A DNA stretch of 11,705 nucleotides from Methylococcaceae bacterium (lineage in GTDB: Bacteria; Pseudomonadota; Gammaproteobacteria; Methylococcales; Methylomonadaceae): NCBI GenBank assembly GCA_013140465.1, contig JABFST010000287.1, forward strand, positions 1 through 11,705, written 5' to 3'. Below, piece by piece: positions 4,801-11,705 of the stretch; within the stretch, counting starts at the first letter, position 1; each line of letters opens with the position of its first letter. The position numbers and the translations under genes are program-made. Under the pieces are notes generated by a model that worked only from the letters and a program-made list of their open reading frames with translations, was not told the origin of the DNA and did no database searches.

Positions 4801-5733
4801 GGATCCGGTTGCCGCGCCTGGAAATGGGGAAATCGCGGTGGGGTGGTTGTGGGTTTCCACTTTCATCAATAAATGCGCGTATTCTTCGACATAGCCATAT
4901 TCGTGGCTGTGGGCATCGCGGATAAAAACCTGGGCGTGTGCGCCTATTGCAACCGAGGCGTTGTCGCTGTATGCCGAAAGAATACCGGACGGGCTTTGTT
5001 CGGCGGTGTTGCGGATCATGCCGAATAAAGTATGGGCTTGGGCGACACCGTCGATAGTCCAATTAGCATTAAAAATTTTGTGGCGGCAATGTTCGGAATT
5101 GGCTTGGGCGAACATCATCAGTTCCACGTCGGTGGGATTACGGCCCAGTTGCTGGAAACTGGCGGTTAAATAATCGATTTCATCATCCGACAAAGCCATG
5201 CCCAGCTCGGCATTGGCATGGACTAAGGCAGCACGGCCTAAGCCGATAACGTCTATGCGCTGTAAAGGTTTGGGTTGGTGATCGGCGAACAAATCGGGTT
5301 CTTGCCCGTCAAACAGCACCGATTGGGTCATGCGGTCATGCAAAACAGCGGCAAGCTGGGTTTTGCTGTCGAGCGACAACGCCTGGCTGGCACTCAGGGT
5401 GTATTCAATGCCGCGCTCTAGGCGCTTGATAGCCGTTAGCCCGCAGCGTTGGGCAATTTCGGTGGCTTTGCTGGACCACGGCGAAATAGTCCCCGCGCGC
5501 GGGATAACCAGTAGTTTGTCGCCCGCTGTTTCGGTAGTGATGGCAGTCCCACTATAGGCCAGCAGTTGGTTTAAGGTGTCGGTTTGGTCGGTGTTGAGGG
5601 CGGTTTCGGCATCGACAAAATGGATGAATCGGGCGCTAACAGCAGTGATAGTCGGCTCTATGGCGCACAATTGGGCGCGTAATTTGTTGATACGAAAATC
5701 GGATAATGCCGTAGGGCCAGGGATTTTTAACAT
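1852..5733 (-). CDS. purL: Phosphoribosylformylglycinamidine synthase (FGAM synthase), single-chain form
   Basis: This enzyme catalyses the fourth step of purine synthesis: FGAR + glutamine + ATP gives FGAM. The 1,293 residues match the large proteobacterial form, which fuses the PurS-like, PurL and PurQ functions (E. coli about 1,295). The N-terminus ([12 protein letters not shown]) aligns with E. coli PurL, which supports this ATG although no clear Shine-Dalgarno lies upstream. Order visible: PurS-like domain (about 1-150), then AIR-synthase-like halves with NSEHCRHK at 212-219 and the ATP/substrate loop ([17 protein letters not shown], then [15 protein letters not shown]) at 291-324. The glutaminase domain begins near 1036, with nucleophile C1131 in GVCNGCQ and the partners H1253 and E1255 in MPHPER. 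All glutaminase triad residues are present. It is transcribed alone, with a spacer of 474 bases from bamC upstream. Confidence 0.98.
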
Positions 5734-5896
5734 AGTCGCTAAGTAGTAGGGTAATTTAAATGAATAAGGGTATTGCTATTAAGCTGTGATGACGAAATTA
5801 ATGGCCTTTATGTTTGCAGGGAATTATTCGACAACGGTTTTGGCCTTAGCTGCGTGTCAGTAGGAGGGAACTCATGGGCATCGGATGAAGACGACT

Positions 5897-6044
5897 GCCG
5901 ATTCGTAAACATTCAGTCCCCCTCCTTAATAAGGAGGGGTTAGGGGAGGTTTTATTGAATAACCCCCCTCAGCCCCTCACAAGCTCTCCCCCCTTTTTCA
6001 AGGGGGGAGAGCTTGTGAGGGGGCCTGAATAAGTACGCCGATTC
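5897..6044. mobile_element. MITE-like palindromic element, long copy, with 8-bp target duplication
   Basis: The element proper is 5905-6036 (132 bp). Its ends read GTAAACATTCAG on the left and, on the complementary strand, GTACTTATTCAG on the right; 9 of 12 bases agree. The 8-mer GCCGATTC directly abuts both ends (5897-5904 and 6037-6044), as expected of a target duplication. Bases 5905-5949 match 44 of 45 bases, and 6021-6036 match 16 of 16, of the reverse complement of the element at 8156-8216. The 71 bases between them are absent from that copy. It has no coding capacity, so movement would need a transposase supplied in trans. The interior also contains a 9-bp hairpin, 5919-5927 with 5931-5939. 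Confidence 0.8.
5973..6022. repeat. Perfect 23-bp stem, 4-base loop hairpin inside the long element copy
   Basis: Bases 5973-5995 are perfectly complementary to 6000-6022, with loop TTTC at 5996-5999. Arm key words are CCCCTCACAAGC and CTCTCCCCCC. It is G/C-rich and lies almost wholly within the 71-base segment that distinguishes this copy from the 61-bp copy. A transcript from bamC reading into it would form a very stable hairpin, but no T-run follows on the minus strand, so terminator function is uncertain. Confidence 0.85.
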
Positions 6045-6207
6045 TTTATATAGTAGTCAACTGAGTTAGCATTTAAGTTAAGGCATACGGCTGGCACTTA
6101 AGCGTTGATATAAACCACACAGTCACCCCGTTATTCCTGCTTGTTCCTTGGGTGCTTGCTAACGCGCAAAGTATTTGGCTAGTTAGCACGTTGCCAACAA
6201 CTTAGGC

Positions 6208-6930
6208 TTATTGATTTTTCGCCAAGTCGGCCTTAATCGTAGCTTCCAATAAGTTTAACAGCTTGATGCTGCTTTCATCCGCCGTTAACTGCTGGTCTTC
6301 ATCCAACACGACAATATCTGTTTTTTGCGGCTGTTGTTCTTCGAGTTTCAGCCGATAAGTTTGATCGTTGCCTTGCAAGCCTTTAACCATAAACACCAAC
6401 TCATCCCAGTAAGAATCATCGGCAACCACTTGTTCATCGGGGTCGTAATGGACTGTAAACAGCCTTGCAGTTTGGTCGCGTTCGGTAACTTCTATGGATT
6501 TTCGGGTAAGTGCCTTGCCGACTATACGCCACGCTTTGACAAACGGCACATTAATGCGCAAACGGTTTTCACCATCAGCAAATTGAACGCGCTCGACACT
6601 GATTGCCGAGTTGGGAATGTCCGACCCGCTTTCCGCCGGAGCAGGAGGAAGGCGTGTATCTAACGCTTGTTCCACAGGTTCTGCTGCGGCATCAGCTGTT
6701 ATCGGGGGAGCAACGTCGGCAACAGCTGCGCTGGGTTCCACCGTTGCCACCGACGGCAATTGGGGCGTAGCCGCTCTTTTTAAGTCTTCCGGCAAAATCA
6801 GCGGGGCAATTTCTGTCGTGTATTGATAGTCTTTTTCCTTATCAGGAAACAGGCTTTGAATATAGCTACAAGCGGTTAAATTGCTTAACGCCAAGCTCGT
6901 CAATAGTATCAGGCCAAAACGTGTTTTCAT
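6208..6930 (-). CDS. bamC: Outer-membrane protein assembly factor BamC (NlpB/DapX lipoprotein)
   Basis: BamC is a lipoprotein subunit of the Bam complex that inserts beta-barrel proteins in the outer membrane. The 240 residues begin with a lipoprotein signal peptide (KTRFGLILLTSLALSNL) and lipobox L18-T19-A20-C21. Serine at +2 fits outer-membrane sorting. Next comes the extended FPDKEKDYQYTTEIAPLILPEDL stretch, which in this family contacts BamD. A low-complexity Ala/Pro linker (about 55-105) follows, then a single NlpB/DapX domain (about 110-240, from ERVQFADGENRLRINVPF to the C-terminal helix). The protein is shorter than E. coli BamC (about 344), which has two such domains. Its ATG overlaps the dapA TGA as ATGA (6927-6930), and no good Shine-Dalgarno is seen, so translation is probably coupled to dapA. 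The same order occurs in E. coli, where the gene was also called dapX. Confidence 0.92.
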   Translation of the reverse strand: MKTRFGLILLTSLALSNLTACSYIQSLFPDKEKDYQYTTEIAPLILPEDLKRAATPQLPSVATVEPSAAVADVAPPITADAAAEPVEQALDTRLPPAPAESGSDIPNSAISVERVQFADGENRLRINVPFVKAWRIVGKALTRKSIEVTERDQTARLFTVHYDPDEQVVADDSYWDELVFMVKGLQGNDQTYRLKLEEQQPQKTDIVVLDEDQQLTADESSIKLLNLLEATIKADLAKNQ

Positions 6931-7805
6931 TGGATCACATTAGCCTGACGCAAGGCATCTTCTACGCTGGCGACACAATCGTCAGTCAGCCAAGTTAAAG
7001 GTAAACGGATACCTGTATCCATCAAGCCCATACGCGCCACCGCCCATTTGACGGGGATGGGGTTGGATTGGATGAACAGCTGTTTGTGCAAAGCCGCCAA
7101 GTGTTGGTCGATAGCCTGCGCGGTTGCGTTGTCGCCGGCGATGGCGGCGGTAATCATGTCATGCACTTTGCGCGGTGCAACATTGCCTGTGACGGTGATG
7201 CTGCCGTTACCGCCCAACAAACAAAATTCGCGGCTAGTGGCATCGTCGCCCGTGTAAATGGCAAAATCGTCGCCCACTAAGTCACGGATTTTTTTTACGC
7301 GGGACAAGTCGCCCGTGGCTTCTTTGACACCCACAATATTGGGGATGGCAGCCAATTGCCCTACGGTTTCAGGCAACATGTCGCAGCCTGTGCGGCCAGG
7401 GACGTTGTATAGAATTTGCGGAATGTCAACGGCTTCGGCAATGGCTTTGTGATGCAGGAACAAACCTTGTTGGGTGGGTTTATTGTAATAAGGTGTAACA
7501 ATCAAACAGGCATCAGCCCCCAATTGCTTGGCTTTTTGGGTCAGGTTGATGGCTTCGGTGGTGGAATTGGCCCCTGTGCCTGCTATGACGGGAATCCTGC
7601 CCGCCGCATAGCCAATAACGGCCTTGATAACGGCGCAGTGTTCCGCCTCGTCCAGGGTGGCGGATTCGCCTGTGGTGCCTACGGCAACCAAAGCATCAGT
7701 GCCTTGATCTATATGAAATTCAACCAAGGCTTTTAGTTGGTCAAAATGCACGGCACCGTTTTGAAACATGGGGGTTACTAAGGCTACGATACTACCTTGA
7801 ATCAT
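6927..7805 (-). CDS. dapA: 4-hydroxy-tetrahydrodipicolinate synthase
   Basis: DapA condenses pyruvate with aspartate semialdehyde, the first committed step to diaminopimelate and lysine. I chose the ATG at 7805 over a TTG at 7817. GAGAGA lies 5 bases upstream, the protein becomes 292 residues like the E. coli enzyme, and catalytic positions then fall exactly on E. coli numbering: T44-T45 in GTTGES, Y133 in YNVPGRT, R138, and Schiff-base lysine K161 in GVKEATGD. The (beta/alpha)8 barrel is complete, and the TPYYNKP motif is at 104-110. The TGA stop overlaps the bamC start, forming a two-gene operon. An extended -10 lies upstream at 7848-7856. Confidence 0.97.
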   Translation of the reverse strand: MIQGSIVALVTPMFQNGAVHFDQLKALVEFHIDQGTDALVAVGTTGESATLDEAEHCAVIKAVIGYAAGRIPVIAGTGANSTTEAINLTQKAKQLGADACLIVTPYYNKPTQQGLFLHHKAIAEAVDIPQILYNVPGRTGCDMLPETVGQLAAIPNIVGVKEATGDLSRVKKIRDLVGDDFAIYTGDDATSREFCLLGGNGSITVTGNVAPRKVHDMITAAIAGDNATAQAIDQHLAALHKQLFIQSNPIPVKWAVARMGLMDTGIRLPLTWLTDDCVASVEDALRQANVIQ

Positions 7806-7847
7806 GAAGTCTCTCAATCAGAATTACGACGGTTACAATTGGCAGCT

Positions 7848-7856
7848 ATTATAGCA
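7848..7856 (-). promoter_or_regulatory. Putative extended -10 promoter of dapA-bamC
   Basis: Read on the minus strand, the sequence is TGCTATAAT, a consensus TATAAT with the TGn extension. No good -35 sits 16-18 bases upstream, as is usual for extended -10 promoters. Transcription would start near 7841, giving a leader of about 36 bases before the dapA ATG. Confidence 0.5.
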
Positions 7857-8081
7857 ACACAACACCTATAAAATAGCCAAACGCCTAAATTTTTAAGTTG
7901 CCCAGAAAAATCACCGTGCAACCCAAACTTTGTTTGCGCCGTGCTGCCGCTAAGATTTGCAGCCTATAGTCCTGTTGGAAAAAAAACACCTCCAACAACC
8001 ACATTGGCAAGGGGATTATATGATCTACAACACATAGACCCGTAAATATTATAAAGTATAGGGAACGCAGGAAGTAAAGCG

Positions 8082-8134
8082 ACATTAAATCCCCCTCACC
8101 CTATCCTCTCCCTGAGGGAGAGGGAGTTTAATGT
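8082..8134. repeat. Palindromic repeat with 8-bp ends and an internal hairpin
   Basis: ACATTAAA (8082-8089) and TTTAATGT (8127-8134) are perfect inverted ends. Inside, CCTCTCCC (8105-8112) pairs with GGGAGAGG (8116-8123) around TGA. The CCCCTCAC and CTCTCCC words recur in the hairpin at 5973-6022, suggesting the same kind of dispersed repeat. No flanking duplication is visible, and no T-run follows. Confidence 0.6.
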
Positions 8135-8147
8135 AGATTTATCAGCT

Positions 8148-8224
8148 TCGGACTCGTACTTATTCAGGCCCCCTCCCCTAACCCCTCCTTTTTAAGGAGG
8201 GGGACTGAATGTTTACTCGGACTC
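8148..8224. mobile_element. MITE-like palindromic element, short copy, with 8-bp target duplication
   Basis: The element is 8156-8216 (61 bp), in inverse orientation to the copy at 5905-6036. TCGGACTC abuts both ends (8148-8155 and 8217-8224), a perfect 8-bp duplication different from that of the other copy. Ends are GTACTTATTCAG and, on the complementary strand, GTAAACATTCAG. Apart from lacking a 71-base internal segment, it differs from the long copy by one base. It lies between dapA and the H-NS-like gene and carries no reading frame. Confidence 0.8.
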
Positions 8225-8319
8225 TATAAGTGCCAAAGTGAGGCCAAAACAGCGTTATTTTTAAATTACCACATGCTTTAATTTTTAGAAATATATTATA
8301 ATAGGCTCGGGAAACGGAC

Positions 8320-8337
8320 ATAATAGCGGGCTATTAT
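8320..8337. promoter_or_regulatory. Inverted repeat upstream of the H-NS-like gene, possible operator
   Basis: ATAATAG (8320-8326) and CTATTAT (8331-8337) flank CGGG. The repeat lies 31-48 bases upstream of the putative -10, which is the region where a dimeric regulator could bind. No regulator can be named. Confidence 0.3.
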
Positions 8338-8367
8338 TGCAATGCCTTTAAATAGCTTGGTTATTTA

Positions 8368-8376
8368 TGATACAAT
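8368..8376 (+). promoter_or_regulatory. Putative extended -10 promoter of the H-NS-like gene
   Basis: TGATACAAT matches TGnTATAAT with one mismatch. A weak TTTAAA at 8347-8352 sits 18 bases upstream. Initiation near 8383 would leave a leader of about 27 bases that includes the Shine-Dalgarno GGAG at 8401-8404. Confidence 0.5.
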
Positions 8377-8409
8377 GCCCTTTATTTTTTTATTATGGAT
8401 GGAGTAACA

Positions 8410-8724
8410 ATGACCGATTATAAAAACCTTTCTGAAAGTGAATTACAAAATGTTATTGAGGGCGCAAAAAAAGCCCTAAAAAATAAACAGGCCAATAAGC
8501 GTAAAAGTGTGATCGCGCAAATCAAGGAGCTGGCTGCTTCAATTGATGTGGTGGTTGATATTAAAGAACCTGACAACACATCAGTGCGCAAAGGCGTTAA
8601 AGTGGCTGTCAAATACCGCCACCCCGAAGATCATGAAAAAACATGGACAGGGCGCGGGGTTATGCCTAAATGGCTGCAAGCCTTAATTAACGAAGGCCGC
8701 GAACGCCAAGAGTTTGAAGTCTAA
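8410..8724 (+). CDS. H-NS histone family nucleoid protein
   Basis: This is a small DNA-binding protein of the H-NS type, likely to bind A/T-rich DNA and silence transcription. The chosen ATG at 8410 has GGAG 5 bases upstream and gives 104 residues. The in-frame ATG at 8395 would put that Shine-Dalgarno inside the gene. Residues 5-45 are a Lys/Glu/Ala-rich helix suited to oligomerisation. Residues 50-70 are a short linker and strand. The DNA-binding motif is at 68-89: KYRHP, then TWTGRG at 78-83, then PKWL. This matches the family pattern WTGxGRxPxW, except that VM replaces the usual R-x after the second Gly. The family also includes plasmid-borne and phage-borne members, but the setting here looks chromosomal. 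It is monocistronic and converges on the amidase gene. Confidence 0.88.
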   Translation: MTDYKNLSESELQNVIEGAKKALKNKQANKRKSVIAQIKELAASIDVVVDIKEPDNTSVRKGVKVAVKYRHPEDHEKTWTGRGVMPKWLQALINEGRERQEFEV

Positions 8725-8753
8725 CATTCGTTAGTTAGCCAGCCTGACCGCAC

Positions 8754-8800
8754 ACTAGCCATCTGAACCTACAATAGGCGGCTTCAGATGGCTGGCTAGT
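8754..8800. terminator. Hairpin between convergent genes, possible bidirectional terminator
   Basis: CCATCTGAA (8759-8767) pairs perfectly with TTCAGATGG (8783-8791). ACTAGCCA (8754-8761) and TGGCTAGT (8793-8800) form an alternative or outer arm. It sits in the 80-base gap between two converging genes. The lack of T-runs weakens the terminator reading. Confidence 0.45.
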
Positions 8801-8804
8801 CGGT

Positions 8805-9689
8805 TCAGTCTATAAAGCGCTTGTTTAGATCTGCGTAGGCATCAATCCTGCGGTCGCGCAAAAACGGCCATATTTGCCTAATGCGCGTGTTGCGGTCACT
8901 GTCCAGGGTTGCAGTGACCACTTTTAGCTCAGACGCATTGGCTTGCGCCAGTATCTCGCCTTGCGGCCCCGCTATAAAACTATTGCCCCAAAAACGGATG
9001 CCCGTGTTTGAATTGGGCGCTTGCTCAAAGCCTATACGGTTACACGAAACAACTGGAATACCATTGGCAACTGCATGGGCACGCTGGATAGTCACCCAAG
9101 CGTCCACTTGCCGCTGATGCTCCTCTGGCGTATCCTGCGGATCCCAGCCTATGGCTGTCGGATAAACCAATAACTCCGCACCCGCCAAGGCCATCAATCG
9201 GGCCGCCTCAGGAAACCACTGGTCCCAACAAATCAATACACCTAATTTGCCTATAGTCGTGTTTATGGGTTTAAAGCCCAAGTCTCCGGGTGTAAAATAG
9301 TATTTCTCGTAAAAGCCAGGATCGTCGGGGATGTGCATTTTTCTGTATCGGCCCGCGATACTGCCATCGCTATCAAAAACCACGGCGGTATTATGATAAA
9401 GGCCAGGCGCCCTAGCCTCAAATAGAGTCGAAACAATGACCACCCCCAGCTCTTTGGCAACGGCTGACAATCTTTCTGTAGTCGGCCCGGGTATGGTTTG
9501 GGCAAGGCCAAAATTGTTGTAATCCTCATTTTGGCAAAAGTAAGGCCCTAAATGCAGCTCGGGCAGCACCACCAAATCGGCGTTATTGGCTGCGGCTTCG
9601 CGTATTTTGGCGATAGAAAACTCTAAGTTAGTTTCGCGGTCTTCTTGACAAGACTGCTGGATTGCGCTAATGGTTAATGATGTTTTCAT
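8805..9689 (-). CDS. aguB: N-carbamoylputrescine amidase
   Basis: This nitrilase-superfamily enzyme hydrolyses N-carbamoylputrescine to putrescine, CO2 and ammonia, the last step of the agmatine (arginine decarboxylase) route to polyamines. It has 294 residues, typical for AguB. The catalytic triad is visible: E44 in VVLPEL, K117 in YRKMHIPDDPGFYEKYYF, and C154 in LICWDQWFPEAAR. The EKYYFTPGD stretch, the NRIGFE segment and the C-terminal WPFLRDRRIDAY are features that separate AguB from other amidases. The usual partner, agmatine deiminase, is not adjacent. An upstream TATAAT on the minus strand (9721-9726) is a possible -10, but its -35 is poor and no good Shine-Dalgarno is seen before the ATG. 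Confidence 0.93.
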   Translation of the reverse strand: MKTSLTISAIQQSCQEDRETNLEFSIAKIREAAANNADLVVLPELHLGPYFCQNEDYNNFGLAQTIPGPTTERLSAVAKELGVVIVSTLFEARAPGLYHNTAVVFDSDGSIAGRYRKMHIPDDPGFYEKYYFTPGDLGFKPINTTIGKLGVLICWDQWFPEAARLMALAGAELLVYPTAIGWDPQDTPEEHQRQVDAWVTIQRAHAVANGIPVVSCNRIGFEQAPNSNTGIRFWGNSFIAGPQGEILAQANASELKVVTATLDSDRNTRIRQIWPFLRDRRIDAYADLNKRFID

Positions 9690-9865
9690 AATTCAGTGAT
9701 ATAATGACCAAGTAAAGCAAATTATAAACTATTATTTAACCGCCCAACTACCAAACGCTATCGTTTAAACTTGACGGGCTTAAAATCAGGCTCTCTTACG
9801 GACTTAGGCTTTCAATTGAGTAACAATATCGTCATTTGCCAAGAATACCCTTTTCCTTACTACTC

Positions 9866-9885
9866 ATGAGATCTTCTCATTTTTT
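9866..9885 (+). terminator. Small stem-loop followed by T-run, upstream of the exported-protein gene
   Basis: ATGAGA (9866-9871) and TCTCAT (9875-9880) form a 6-bp stem with loop TCT, directly followed by five more Ts (9881-9885). The stem is A/T-rich and weak. A second inverted pair, GCCGCC (9891-9896) and GGCGGC (9913-9918), lies between it and the gene start at 9951. They could attenuate the cluster's transcript or be chance. The rest of 9690-9950 shows no gene. Confidence 0.3.
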
Positions 9886-9950
9886 GCAGTGCCGCCATGT
9901 GTCTGCCCCTAGGGCGGCTTTCAGAACCCTTCAATTTTAGGTGAGCCAAT

Positions 9951-10523
9951 ATGCGCAACCAAGAGCAAGAAAATTCAGATAATTTGACAGAACCAACTGA
10001 AGCAAATAACAGAAGGCGATTCATAAAAGGCTTGGGGGGAATCACCCCTGTCCTATTAACGCTCACTAGCCCGTCGATATTAGGCGGGGAAATGTGTCTC
10101 TCCCAGCAACTGTCTGGCAATGTGTCCGGCACGACCAACGGTGCTTGTGTCAAAGGGCAAAATCCGACTTTCTGGAGGAATGGCAGCAGCATTAGCTTAT
10201 GGCAAACAGCGGGGTTGGTTTATGGGACGCGCATCACTTCACCCACCAATAACGGCACCTTATGCTCCCACTATACTGGCGGAACAGCCTTTAACGTTAT
10301 ATTCGGTGGCAACACAACCACACCCCTACGCCAACTTTTATGCTCAAATGTTACTAATTCAACAGCTATTTGGATTGCGGCTTATCTTAATGCAGCAGCC
10401 ATTCCTAATTACATCTTAACCAAACAACAGGTGTTGGAATTATATACTGGGGCACTCGCACCGCCACCGCCTTATCCAAACGCTAACTCAGGCCGCACCA
10501 ACTTTTTAAAATCAACATGGTAG
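9951..10523 (+). CDS. Exported protein with twin-arginine-type signal, four cysteines, unknown function
   Basis: The 190-residue protein starts at an ATG with AGGTGA 6 bases upstream. A 20-residue polar N-region leads to NRRRFIKG (20-27), close to the Tat consensus, then a moderately hydrophobic core (about 28-44, GLGGITPVLLTLTSPSIL). Export by Tat is therefore likely. The mature part has exactly four Cys (49, 66, 105, 131), enough for two disulfides. It contains NPTFWRNGSSISLW (71-84), GTAFNVIFGG (111-120) and AAYLNAA followed by LTKQQVLELYTG (143-167), and it ends in a Pro-rich tail. I have the impression of similar exported proteins with an 'SPGFWKN...W' pattern and a late Leu/Asn/Ala helix, but I know no function or catalytic motif for them. 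It is the first gene of the three-gene right-edge cluster; the next gene begins 41 bases after its stop. Confidence 0.82.
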   Translation: MRNQEQENSDNLTEPTEANNRRRFIKGLGGITPVLLTLTSPSILGGEMCLSQQLSGNVSGTTNGACVKGQNPTFWRNGSSISLWQTAGLVYGTRITSPTNNGTLCSHYTGGTAFNVIFGGNTTTPLRQLLCSNVTNSTAIWIAAYLNAAAIPNYILTKQQVLELYTGALAPPPPYPNANSGRTNFLKSTW

Positions 10524-10564
10524 ATGCAAGCACCCTCATTTTAATGTTTGCCTAAAACGCACTT

Positions 10565-10861
10565 ATGCTTGAGGGTAACTATATTGGCTTGCCTGAACAG
10601 GGCGTACATTATCGGCTTTGGGACGATGAGTGCGTTGTTTTTAATTCGCAATCAGGACAAACCCATTTGCTTGACGGTGTAGGCGCATTTATTTTTCAAT
10701 TGCTTTCCAAAAATGTAACTACACGCACAGCAGTGTTAGAATACGCGCAAAATGCCTTTGAATTTGAAACAGGCATTAACAACAAACTGCTTATGGATAA
10801 CTTAATTCTTGAATACCATAAATTAGGGCTATTAATCATAACGGAAAACCCAGCCGCGTGA
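10565..10861 (+). CDS. PqqD-like small protein of the HPr-rel-A gene set
   Basis: This is a 98-residue protein with the PqqD fold pattern. A strand-rich N-terminal half contains HYRLWDDECVVFNSQSGQTHLLDGVGAFIFQLL (15-47), and a helical C-terminal half (about 50-95) resembles winged-helix PqqD proteins. PqqD itself presents a peptide to a radical-SAM enzyme; related proteins act as peptide-binding domains in RiPP systems. No radical-SAM gene is visible here. An in-frame stop lies just upstream, so the ATG at 10565 is the only ATG start possible, although no Shine-Dalgarno is evident. Its TGA overlaps the kinase start as GTGA (10858-10861). Adjacency to an HprK-related kinase places it in the set annotated as the 'HPr-rel-A system PqqD family' protein. 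Binding of a peptide or of the upstream exported protein is inference. Confidence 0.8.
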   Translation: MLEGNYIGLPEQGVHYRLWDDECVVFNSQSGQTHLLDGVGAFIFQLLSKNVTTRTAVLEYAQNAFEFETGINNKLLMDNLILEYHKLGLLIITENPAA

Positions 10862-11705
10862 AATTAGCCGACATCCCGAAACCGGAACTTTTCAAAACCC
10901 TGAAAACACAAGGCTTACGCTTAAAAATTGGCGGCTATGCCGTATGCGTGTCATCGCCTATAGCCGAAGTAGCAGAGCATTTGTCTTGCCTCTACGATGC
11001 TTTTGAAATTATCAGCGCAGACAGCTTTATCGATTTTCATGTTGCTTTGCAAGCCCCTAGTGGGCTGCGCCATTATTGGCATCCACAAGTCAATTTCTCT
11101 TTTGACGGCCATTTGCCGTTCAAGCCCTTGCCTTACGACCAAGCTGCAGCCCTGTTTGAATGGGGCCTAAATTGGTGTGTCGCCAGCCATTCCAACCATT
11201 ACCTAGTCATTCATGCTGCCGTAGTGGCACTCAATAACCAAGCTTTTATATTCCCTGGCACGCCCGGCAGTGGCAAAAGCACTTTATGCGCCGCTTTGGT
11301 GGAAAGCGGTTGGCGGCTGCTTTCTGATGAGATGGCTCTAATGTCATTGGCTGACGGACTGATTTATCCACTGCCTAGGCCCATAAGTCTCAAAAACCGC
11401 TCAATTACGGTGATCCAAGATTTTTCGCCCTCAGCGGTATTTGGCAAACTCGTTCATGACACCAGCAAAGGCAGTGTCGGGCATTTGCGCCCCCCTAATG
11501 CCAGCGTAGAGGCGGGGTCAAAACCCGCCCAGCCCAGGCATCTGATTTTCCCCAAATACGAAGCCTCATCATCCACCCAGCTATTGCCGTTAAGTAAAGG
11601 CCGGGCGATGATCAAACTGGCTGAAAACTGCTTTAACTATAATATATTAGGCGCACATGGCTTTAATGGCGCGGCTGATTTAATTACTGCCTGTGGGTGT
11701 TATGA
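10858..11705 (+). CDS. HprK-related kinase A, 3' end outside window
   Basis: The frame starts at GTG 10858, overlapping the PqqD-like stop by 4 bases, and stays open to the right edge (282 codons). The protein resembles the C-terminal catalytic domain of HPr kinase/phosphorylase without its normal N-terminal domain. Visible are IHAAVV at 118-123, the Walker A loop GTPGSGKST at 134-142, a Walker B-like LLSDEMAL at 154-161, and LPRPISLKN at 172-180 then GHLRPP at 208-213, which are typical of this kinase set. Family length is about 300, so only a few codons are probably missing. The substrate is unknown, and no HPr protein is encoded in the window. The start has no clear Shine-Dalgarno, so coupling with the upstream gene is likely. 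An ATGA at 11702-11705 could begin a further overlapping gene, but this cannot be judged. Confidence 0.85.
   Translation, partial: MKLADIPKPELFKTLKTQGLRLKIGGYAVCVSSPIAEVAEHLSCLYDAFEIISADSFIDFHVALQAPSGLRHYWHPQVNFSFDGHLPFKPLPYDQAAALFEWGLNWCVASHSNHYLVIHAAVVALNNQAFIFPGTPGSGKSTLCAALVESGWRLLSDEMALMSLADGLIYPLPRPISLKNRSITVIQDFSPSAVFGKLVHDTSKGSVGHLRPPNASVEAGSKPAQPRHLIFPKYEASSSTQLLPLSKGRAMIKLAENCFNYNILGAHGFNGAADLITACGCY

Follow-up and report, generated by a model that had tools for sequence, protein, structure and literature searches.

A protein with a twin-arginine-type signal as a candidate substrate of the HPr-rel-A kinase and PqqD-like protein

Some lasso peptides (paeninodin PadeK, ThcoK, SyanK; pseudomycoidin PsmK/PsmN) are phosphorylated and glycosylated, as far as excerpts of the relevant papers go, by the same three kinds of protein as those encoded by the gene cassette considered here, namely an RRE, a homologue of HPr kinase and a nucleotidyltransferase. 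According to these excerpts (PMC8498205, PMC9266682), the kinases phosphorylate the C-terminal Ser of the lasso precursor, the B1 RREs bind its leader, and a nucleotidyltransferase gene is required for the placing of one or two hexoses on the phosphate, the excerpt of one review leaving open whether the nucleotidyltransferase itself transfers the sugar; the lasso kinases are reported with a catalytic His-Lys-Asp-Asp set (PMC8498205, PMC9266682). Both systems also have His, Lys and Asp conserved in their homologue of HPr kinase, whereas the fourth kinase residue, compared by description with the excerpts, looks like Glu in the cassette and is Asp in the lasso kinases. The partner differs as well, being an exported protein of about 130-320 aa here and a short peptide in the lasso pathways.

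DUF2063-type RREs, in turn, pair with DUF2282 precursors bearing Sec signals, as stated in the available part of one paper (PMC12710340). They resemble the cassette in that an RRE goes together with a precursor bearing a signal for export, and differ from it in the signal, which is Sec in that excerpt and twin-arginine here. The enzyme class also differs, being multinuclear iron in the DUF2063-type systems. As for PqqD and PqqA, the RRE fold of PqqD (5sxy) is common to the PqqD-like protein of the cassette, the sequence of which falls under the Pfam PqqD cut-off (19.3 vs 23.4), and no radical SAM partner was found among the subset of neighbours annotated. A further comparison is offered by the Tat proofreading chaperones TorD, DmsD and NapD, small cytoplasmic proteins that hold twin-arginine signals until maturation. 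The PqqD-like protein is likewise proposed to hold such a signal, the binding being putative, but the fold of these chaperones differs from that of an RRE, and here no redox cofactor is known.

To my knowledge, the HPr-rel-A gene set is functionally uncharacterised, and no earlier statement of a link between it and the exported protein was found in the literature outside subscription papers and preprints. The window, that is, the whole stretch of DNA analysed (11,705 nucleotides), is an entire contig (C211) of a 3.6 Mb assembly, 83% complete and made of 507 contigs. Near the end of the window (Table 1), three genes lie in order on the same strand, with 41 bases from the stop of the exported-protein gene to the start of the PqqD-like gene, and the GTG start of the kinase at 10858 overlapping the PqqD-like stop as GTGA; order, coordinates, gap and overlap had all been given correctly in the preliminary description. 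A pattern scan of 9600-11000 returned no terminator-like site, hence none between the exported-protein gene and the pair, in line with the link drawn in that description; as the sole promoter-like site returned lies on the - strand, no such pattern separates the three genes.

Table 1. Positions of the cassette features in the window
Feature	Position	Strand	Basis
Exported protein, 190 aa; proposed cassette substrate	9951-10523	+	Translation
Twin-arginine-type signal region of the exported protein	10011..10088	+	Highest conservation among distant relatives
C-x-S-x3-S-G-N-x-S, start of the mature part; Ser 51, 55 and 59 candidate acceptors	10095..10127	+	Alignment A5
PqqD-like/RRE protein (TIGR04353), proposed leader binder	10565-10861	+	TIGR04353 over cut-off; AlphaFold2 model
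HprK-related kinase A (TIGR04352), 3' end lost at the contig end	10858-11703	+	TIGR04352 score
Kinase P-loop GTPGSGKST, with His 119 before and Asp-Glu 157-158 after	11257..11283	+	Alignment A3

The kinase and the PqqD-like protein had been taken for members of a named gene set, and both indeed exceed the curated cut-offs of the HPr-rel-A models, whereas no model of that set covers the exported protein. The window kinase scores 374.9 bits against TIGR04352 (cut-off 200), the match ending at model position 263 of 280. H119, K140, D157 and E158 are invariant in the kinase alignment A3, and the His, the P-loop Lys and the Asp-Glu motif are found, by an expression fitted after viewing the sequences, in 176 of 176 kinase loci (169 of the 176 sequences being distinct over their last 200 residues). 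The His, Lys and Asp are presumably catalytic, as they are in HprK and as is reported for the lasso kinases; with HprK 1jb1 the kinase aligns weakly across the P-loop region (E 0.04). The PqqD-like protein reaches 43.7 bits against TIGR04353 (cut-off 35), and its AlphaFold2 model (pLDDT 91.6) has a winged-helix RRE fold. In the PDB this model best matches leader-bound TbiB1, a B1 protein of a lasso-peptide pathway (E 1.8e-4), and then, more weakly, B1 6jx3 (E 0.004) and PqqD 5sxy (E 0.035, TM 0.60-0.62); as modelled, it is an RRE nearest to the lasso-peptide B1 proteins.

The simplest reading of the cassette is that the exported protein is the substrate of its enzymes. I regard it as somewhat probable that this protein serves the HPr-rel-A set as a dedicated substrate, which would make the set a system for modifying proteins before their export. 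The PqqD-like protein would bind the N-terminal signal or leader in the cytoplasm and present the exported protein to the kinase, which would phosphorylate one of its Ser or Thr residues. Candidate acceptors are the serines of C-x-S-x3-SGN-x-S in the class to which the window protein belongs, or else a C-terminal hydroxyl residue, as in the SCW-x-S tails of class II and the FL-x-x-T-W-like tails of class I. The nucleotidyltransferase would put a nucleotidyl group or a sugar on that phosphate; phosphorylation followed by nucleotidylation or glycosylation is proposed by analogy. The modified, folded protein would leave via Tat and work in or at a polysaccharide-producing cell surface, and since Tat moves folded proteins, the export by this route of a protein modified in the cytoplasm would make sense. 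Binding, phosphorylation and Tat export, as predicted from sequences and models, fit the RRE fold, the conserved kinase residues and the presence of TatC in 98 of 101 genomes of the family.

As to the exported protein itself, the translation confirms the four cysteines (at 49, 66, 105 and 131) and the RR motif noticed earlier, the latter as RRR at 21-23, after which comes a weakly hydrophobic stretch. The twin-arginine signal claimed along with them is present as a motif, but TIGR01409 matches at 13.8 bits, under its cut-off of 16.7; it is the sole NCBIfam match of the window protein, and no Pfam family was found for it. Relatives in groups of 24, 24 and 59 (scanned with Pfam and NCBIfam in the first two groups and with NCBIfam in the third) gave stray matches to one member each, plus TIGR01409 in two. 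Among the exported proteins, the pattern RRx[FLM]x[KRQ] is carried by 51 of the 74 named ones, 35 of the 49 from the phylum and 30 of the 35 from the family; its presence in the phylum and named sequences is not independent of their selection for an RR-like motif. TatC, present in 90 of 90 family genomes of high quality, was not found in the window's own 83%-complete genome, an absence most simply caused by incompleteness. The sub-cut-off TIGR01409 match and the lack of TatC in the host's own genome count against the substrate reading.

Mean pairwise identity, taken over 600 pairs drawn at random from the named set, is 40.2% in the signal region versus 28.9% in the mature part, the segment before RR giving 24%, the PqqD-like protein 28%, the kinase 51% and shuffled controls 20-21%. 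R23 and P33 are invariant in alignment A2 (24 sequences of the window's class), and in A5 (59 sequences, among them 53 of the 74 named-set exported proteins, the 21 more divergent ones being omitted) C49, S51 and S55 are invariant, G56 and S59 nearly so. Three classes of exported protein were delimited by eye: class I, that of the window, opens its mature part with C-x-S-x3-S-G-N-x-S; class II has SCW-x-S-like C-terminal tails; and the third, made of one group (f46), ends in FTCFASLQMPRG or a near variant. Alignment A4 of class II was picked partly by the appearance of the tail, and the invariance of the C-terminal Ser in it is not independent. Motifs were counted in the sequences of 35 of 37 family loci, 49 of 52 positive phylum loci (L117, L152 and L154 out) and 74 of 77 positive named loci: a strict SGN-x-S is present in 49 of the 74 named proteins, in 23 of the 35 from the family and in 4 of the 49 from the phylum, whereas a C[WFYM]xS tail is shared by 35 of the phylum proteins and 5 of the family ones and is seen in none of the named set. 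By these counts no acceptor residue common to the classes was found, which speaks against the substrate reading. Profile A4 recovers the window's own exported protein at E 3e-6, so that the classes share at least their N-terminal part. For the window protein, structure prediction gives the mature part as a single ordered domain, with pLDDT about 90 from residue 70 on, and this model has no match in the PDB. The mature domain is far larger than a RiPP core, an observation that likewise counts against the protein being a substrate.

The kinase was counted when over the TIGR04352 cut-off, with the addition of a contig-edge fragment in G059, and the weak kinase loci L068-L071 were removed ahead of the family counts. 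At E <=0.001, matches to the kinase model occur in 43 of the 101 genomes of the family and in 199 of the 398 of the phylum; over the cut-off, the kinase is present in 37 of the former (38 with the G059 fragment) and in 61 of the latter. The A2 profile (24 sequences) finds a homologue of the exported protein in 34 of 101 family genomes, 33 of them with a kinase over the cut-off; in the 34th, G059, the kinase fragment adjoins the homologue at a contig edge (hypergeometric 8e-23, shared descent being ignored). One extra weak A2 match (E 8e-4) is located elsewhere in G032, and four genomes (G033, G037, G084, G098) have the kinase without an A2 match, yet carry an exported protein of another class beside it. 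In the phylum, where at most six candidates per genome were scored for the kinase and at most nine for the class II exported protein, profile A4 (24 sequences) matches 40 of 398 genomes, 40 of 40 with a kinase over the cut-off (hypergeometric 8e-40, shared descent being again ignored). The query alignments of A2 and A4 consist mostly of cassette neighbours, a bias toward finding cassette members; a search from the window exported protein alone gave nine further proteins, none of them on a contig longer than 6.2 kb. According to the preliminary description, homologues found mostly in the absence of the kinase/PqqD pair would have removed the link; in fact they are almost confined to genomes with the kinase and mostly adjoin it.

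A similar picture emerges from gene position. In 34 of the 37 family loci, window included, the gene for the exported protein (RR, twice KR, in L044 and L059) immediately precedes the PqqD-like one. In L045 its gene is interrupted into two ORFs, and in L055 and L056 the contig ends at its position, a piece being at the end of another contig (G036:C432, G083:C20); none of these is a clear exception to the family gene order. In the phylum, 59 stretches were fetched (G273 is not among them), L159 of G289 being left out as contig-cut, and an exported protein lies within 2 kb of the kinase in 52 of 58 testable loci, 51 on the same strand; the positives include L152 and L154, accepted by eye, L127, which is short, and L117, with the pair on the opposite strand. 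The remaining phylum loci are L119, L120, L126, L134, L143 and L158. Among the 80 named loci, at least seven of which are apparently the same contigs as family loci, the exported protein precedes the PqqD-like and kinase genes in 77 of 79 testable ones (L210 is contig-cut and out), 74 by an automatic rule and three by eye (L228 and L248 without an RR motif in view, L244 by its tail). No exported protein was found near the kinase in L226 (a Nitrosospira MAG) and L235 (Sedimenticola selenatireducens), nor in L158 of the phylum, and these kinase-only loci count against the substrate reading.

The distance from the exported-protein stop to the RRE start has a median of 12 bases and a maximum of 93 (66 loci). 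Of 445 control genes (130-330 aa) located elsewhere in the same loci, 26 pass a loose rule (RR or KR plus a hydrophobic stretch), whereas the RR-signal rule, with place and length limits, is passed in front of the kinase in 74 of 80 named loci; a signal-bearing neighbour is thus more than a chance occurrence. All this strongly indicates that, in the genomes and loci examined, the HPr-rel-A set nearly always includes the exported protein.

In five of the six phylum genomes whose kinase has no exported protein nearby (G169, G181, G122, G225, G368), the kinase lies apart, with no PqqD-like match beside it, and the exported-protein gene is elsewhere. In four of the five (L309-L312) the displaced exported-protein gene adjoins a PqqD-like gene, as expected if one protein binds the other; in the fifth (L308) it is followed by another protein. 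Along the same line, G285 has a second exported-protein/PqqD pair with no kinase within the 7 kb read (L313). The tightest association seems to be that of the exported protein with the PqqD-like protein. The other two members are tied together by a fusion, since L123, also of G285, is a 706-aa frame in which TIGR04352 matches at 20-299 and PF14907 at 354-608, i.e. kinase and nucleotidyltransferase in one.

In the window genome, PF14907 (NTP_transf_5) has a single match, at the start of contig C343, where a 358-aa nucleotidyltransferase is followed, counting from the contig end, by genes of 402, 441 and 403 aa; a matching order is seen in L033, with 359 (PF14907), 399, 441 and 372 aa. From this synteny I infer that the nucleotidyltransferase of C343 is the next gene after the window kinase. 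The preliminary description had suggested looking to the right for a nucleotidyltransferase or other modifying enzyme, and gene order and sizes like those of related loci agree with it, but C211 and C343 share no overlap. Across the loci, 79 of the 80 named ones have a nucleotidyltransferase match following the kinase, and the stretches read contain such a match at 47 of the 59 phylum loci and at 33 of the 37 family loci. The family stretches without it are those of the window (match on C343), L036, L037 and L042 (PF14907 elsewhere in the genome). The lack of a match in 12 of 59 phylum stretches counts against the substrate reading. The four genes form a conserved unit, which is mostly a tandem array but is split at a minority of the loci.

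That the cassette often lies among sugar-polymer genes invites a different explanation, in which the exported protein is not modified, the enzymes acting on another molecule (a sugar, a lipid or a short peptide of a polysaccharide pathway) and the exported protein belonging to that pathway as a co-expressed effector or surface protein. Near the cassette, 24 of 37 family loci have an asparagine-synthase-like, XrtA-type amidotransferase-like gene. The mature domain varies and lacks an acceptor motif common to the classes, and, as gene reading at the loci covered frames above about 55-70 aa, a short precursor outside gene overlaps could be missed. I nevertheless consider this explanation unlikely: the other recurrent neighbours reach at most 24 of 37 family loci, against 34 for the exported protein, whose remaining three are interrupted or cut; four of the five split genomes have a PqqD-like gene next to the exported-protein gene that lies apart from the kinase; RREs of known kind bind peptide leaders, according to the excerpts cited above; and the intergenic gaps of the cassette are too small for much other precursor.

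The variable mature domain could also be a sensor, and HprK homologues act as regulators in other systems. It is nonetheless improbable that the exported protein acts as an outside regulator of the cassette, for instance as a sensor whose signal region stays bound to the PqqD-like protein until export and whose state is signalled by the kinase, for a nucleotidyltransferase fused to the kinase or placed after it would then have no evident role. A strict RiPP pathway, with the mature part trimmed to a short modified peptide, would account for a conserved signal followed by a variable remainder, and RRE, HprK-like kinase and nucleotidyltransferase are together a RiPP tailoring set in the excerpts on lasso peptides. 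Such trimming appears very doubtful in view of the modelled mature part, which is one ordered domain, and of the protease: no B2-type protease was found with the cassette, the lasso-type protease domain PF13471 (B2 family) being present in just three of the 37 family kinase genomes (two over the cut-off), on other contigs.

Coming back to the exported protein as substrate, one may speculate, tentatively, that Tat proofreading is done here by the RRE/PqqD-family protein as chaperone, which would hold the twin-arginine signal of one dedicated protein until the kinase and the nucleotidyltransferase have built a phospho-sugar or nucleotidyl group, the modified protein alone being exported, perhaps to carry or anchor exopolysaccharide. 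If true, many Pseudomonadota would have a new system that modifies a protein and controls its export, a single conserved signal preceding mature domains that can be exchanged. A named gene set without a known target gains a concrete candidate substrate, and its function becomes directly testable. If the substrate reading is right, the RRE/HprK/nucleotidyltransferase logic of lasso tailoring would extend to exported proteins, and there would be a case of cytoplasmic modification preceding export in bacteria such as Methylobacter, Thiobacillus, Massilia and Noviherbaspirillum.

The neighbouring genes deserve a final mention. On C343, the 441-aa gene is presumably UDP-sugar dehydrogenase-like, judging from one annotated cluster member, and those of 402 and 403 aa are presumably glycosyltransferase-like. 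The amidotransferase-like gene of L035, the one member scanned, falls under the cut-off of the lasso cyclase model and scores 1077 bits against TIGR03108 (XrtA amidotransferase; cut-off 817).

The kinase and nucleotidyltransferase functions of the cassette can reside in one polypeptide, as in genome G285, where a single reading frame at locus L123 joins kinase A to an NTP_transf_5 nucleotidyltransferase. Besides a complete cassette, the same genome carries a second pair of exported-protein and PqqD-like genes (L313, contig C66; 7 kb stretch) with no kinase adjoining, and this combination suggests that one kinase there serves two substrates. Disrupted genes were also encountered: in L045 (G068) the exported-protein gene is interrupted and reads as a 76-aa and a 178-aa ORF, with the PqqD-like, kinase and nucleotidyltransferase genes following, and in L067 (G016) a transposase-like insertion splits the kinase gene in two.

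The place usually held by the nucleotidyltransferase, downstream of the kinase, is taken in L036, L037 and L042 by a MauG/MbnH-like di-haem gene, which lies about 150-200 bases past the kinase and, in the one member scanned (L036), matches PF03150; all three genomes encode PF14907 proteins elsewhere. Genome G082 has a second PF14907 gene, and close to it are a PF13471 gene, which we take to be lasso-B2-like, and two HprK-like matches, both weak. Judged by these matches, the region looks like a putative lasso-type cluster employing the same kinds of enzyme as the cassette.

As to neighbours, the N-carbamoylputrescine-amidase-like gene upstream of the window's cassette, on the opposite strand, has a homologue likewise upstream in L041. 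XrtA/PEP-CTERM-type genes border many cassettes in family loci L032-L067; an XrtA-amidotransferase-like gene occurs in 24 of the 37 family stretches and, at >800 bits, in 4 of the 80 named and 1 of the 59 phylum stretches. The window's own genome (G000) has an asparagine-synthase-like gene on contig C112 scoring 568 bits to TIGR03108, below the cut-off of that model.

Positions of the features discussed
Feature	Location	Strand	Remark
N-carbamoylputrescine-amidase-like gene	window, 8805-9689	-	below TIGR03381 cut-off
Kinase A/NTP_transf_5 fusion	L123 (G285:C392), 5468-7588		one 706-aa frame
Putative lasso-type cluster (PF14907 gene, PF13471 gene, weak HprK-like matches)	G082:C297, 47640-64225		within 17 kb
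Interrupted exported-protein gene	L045, 6255-7155		
Split kinase gene	L067, about 7500-9100		
Asparagine-synthase-like gene	G000:C112, 420-2348
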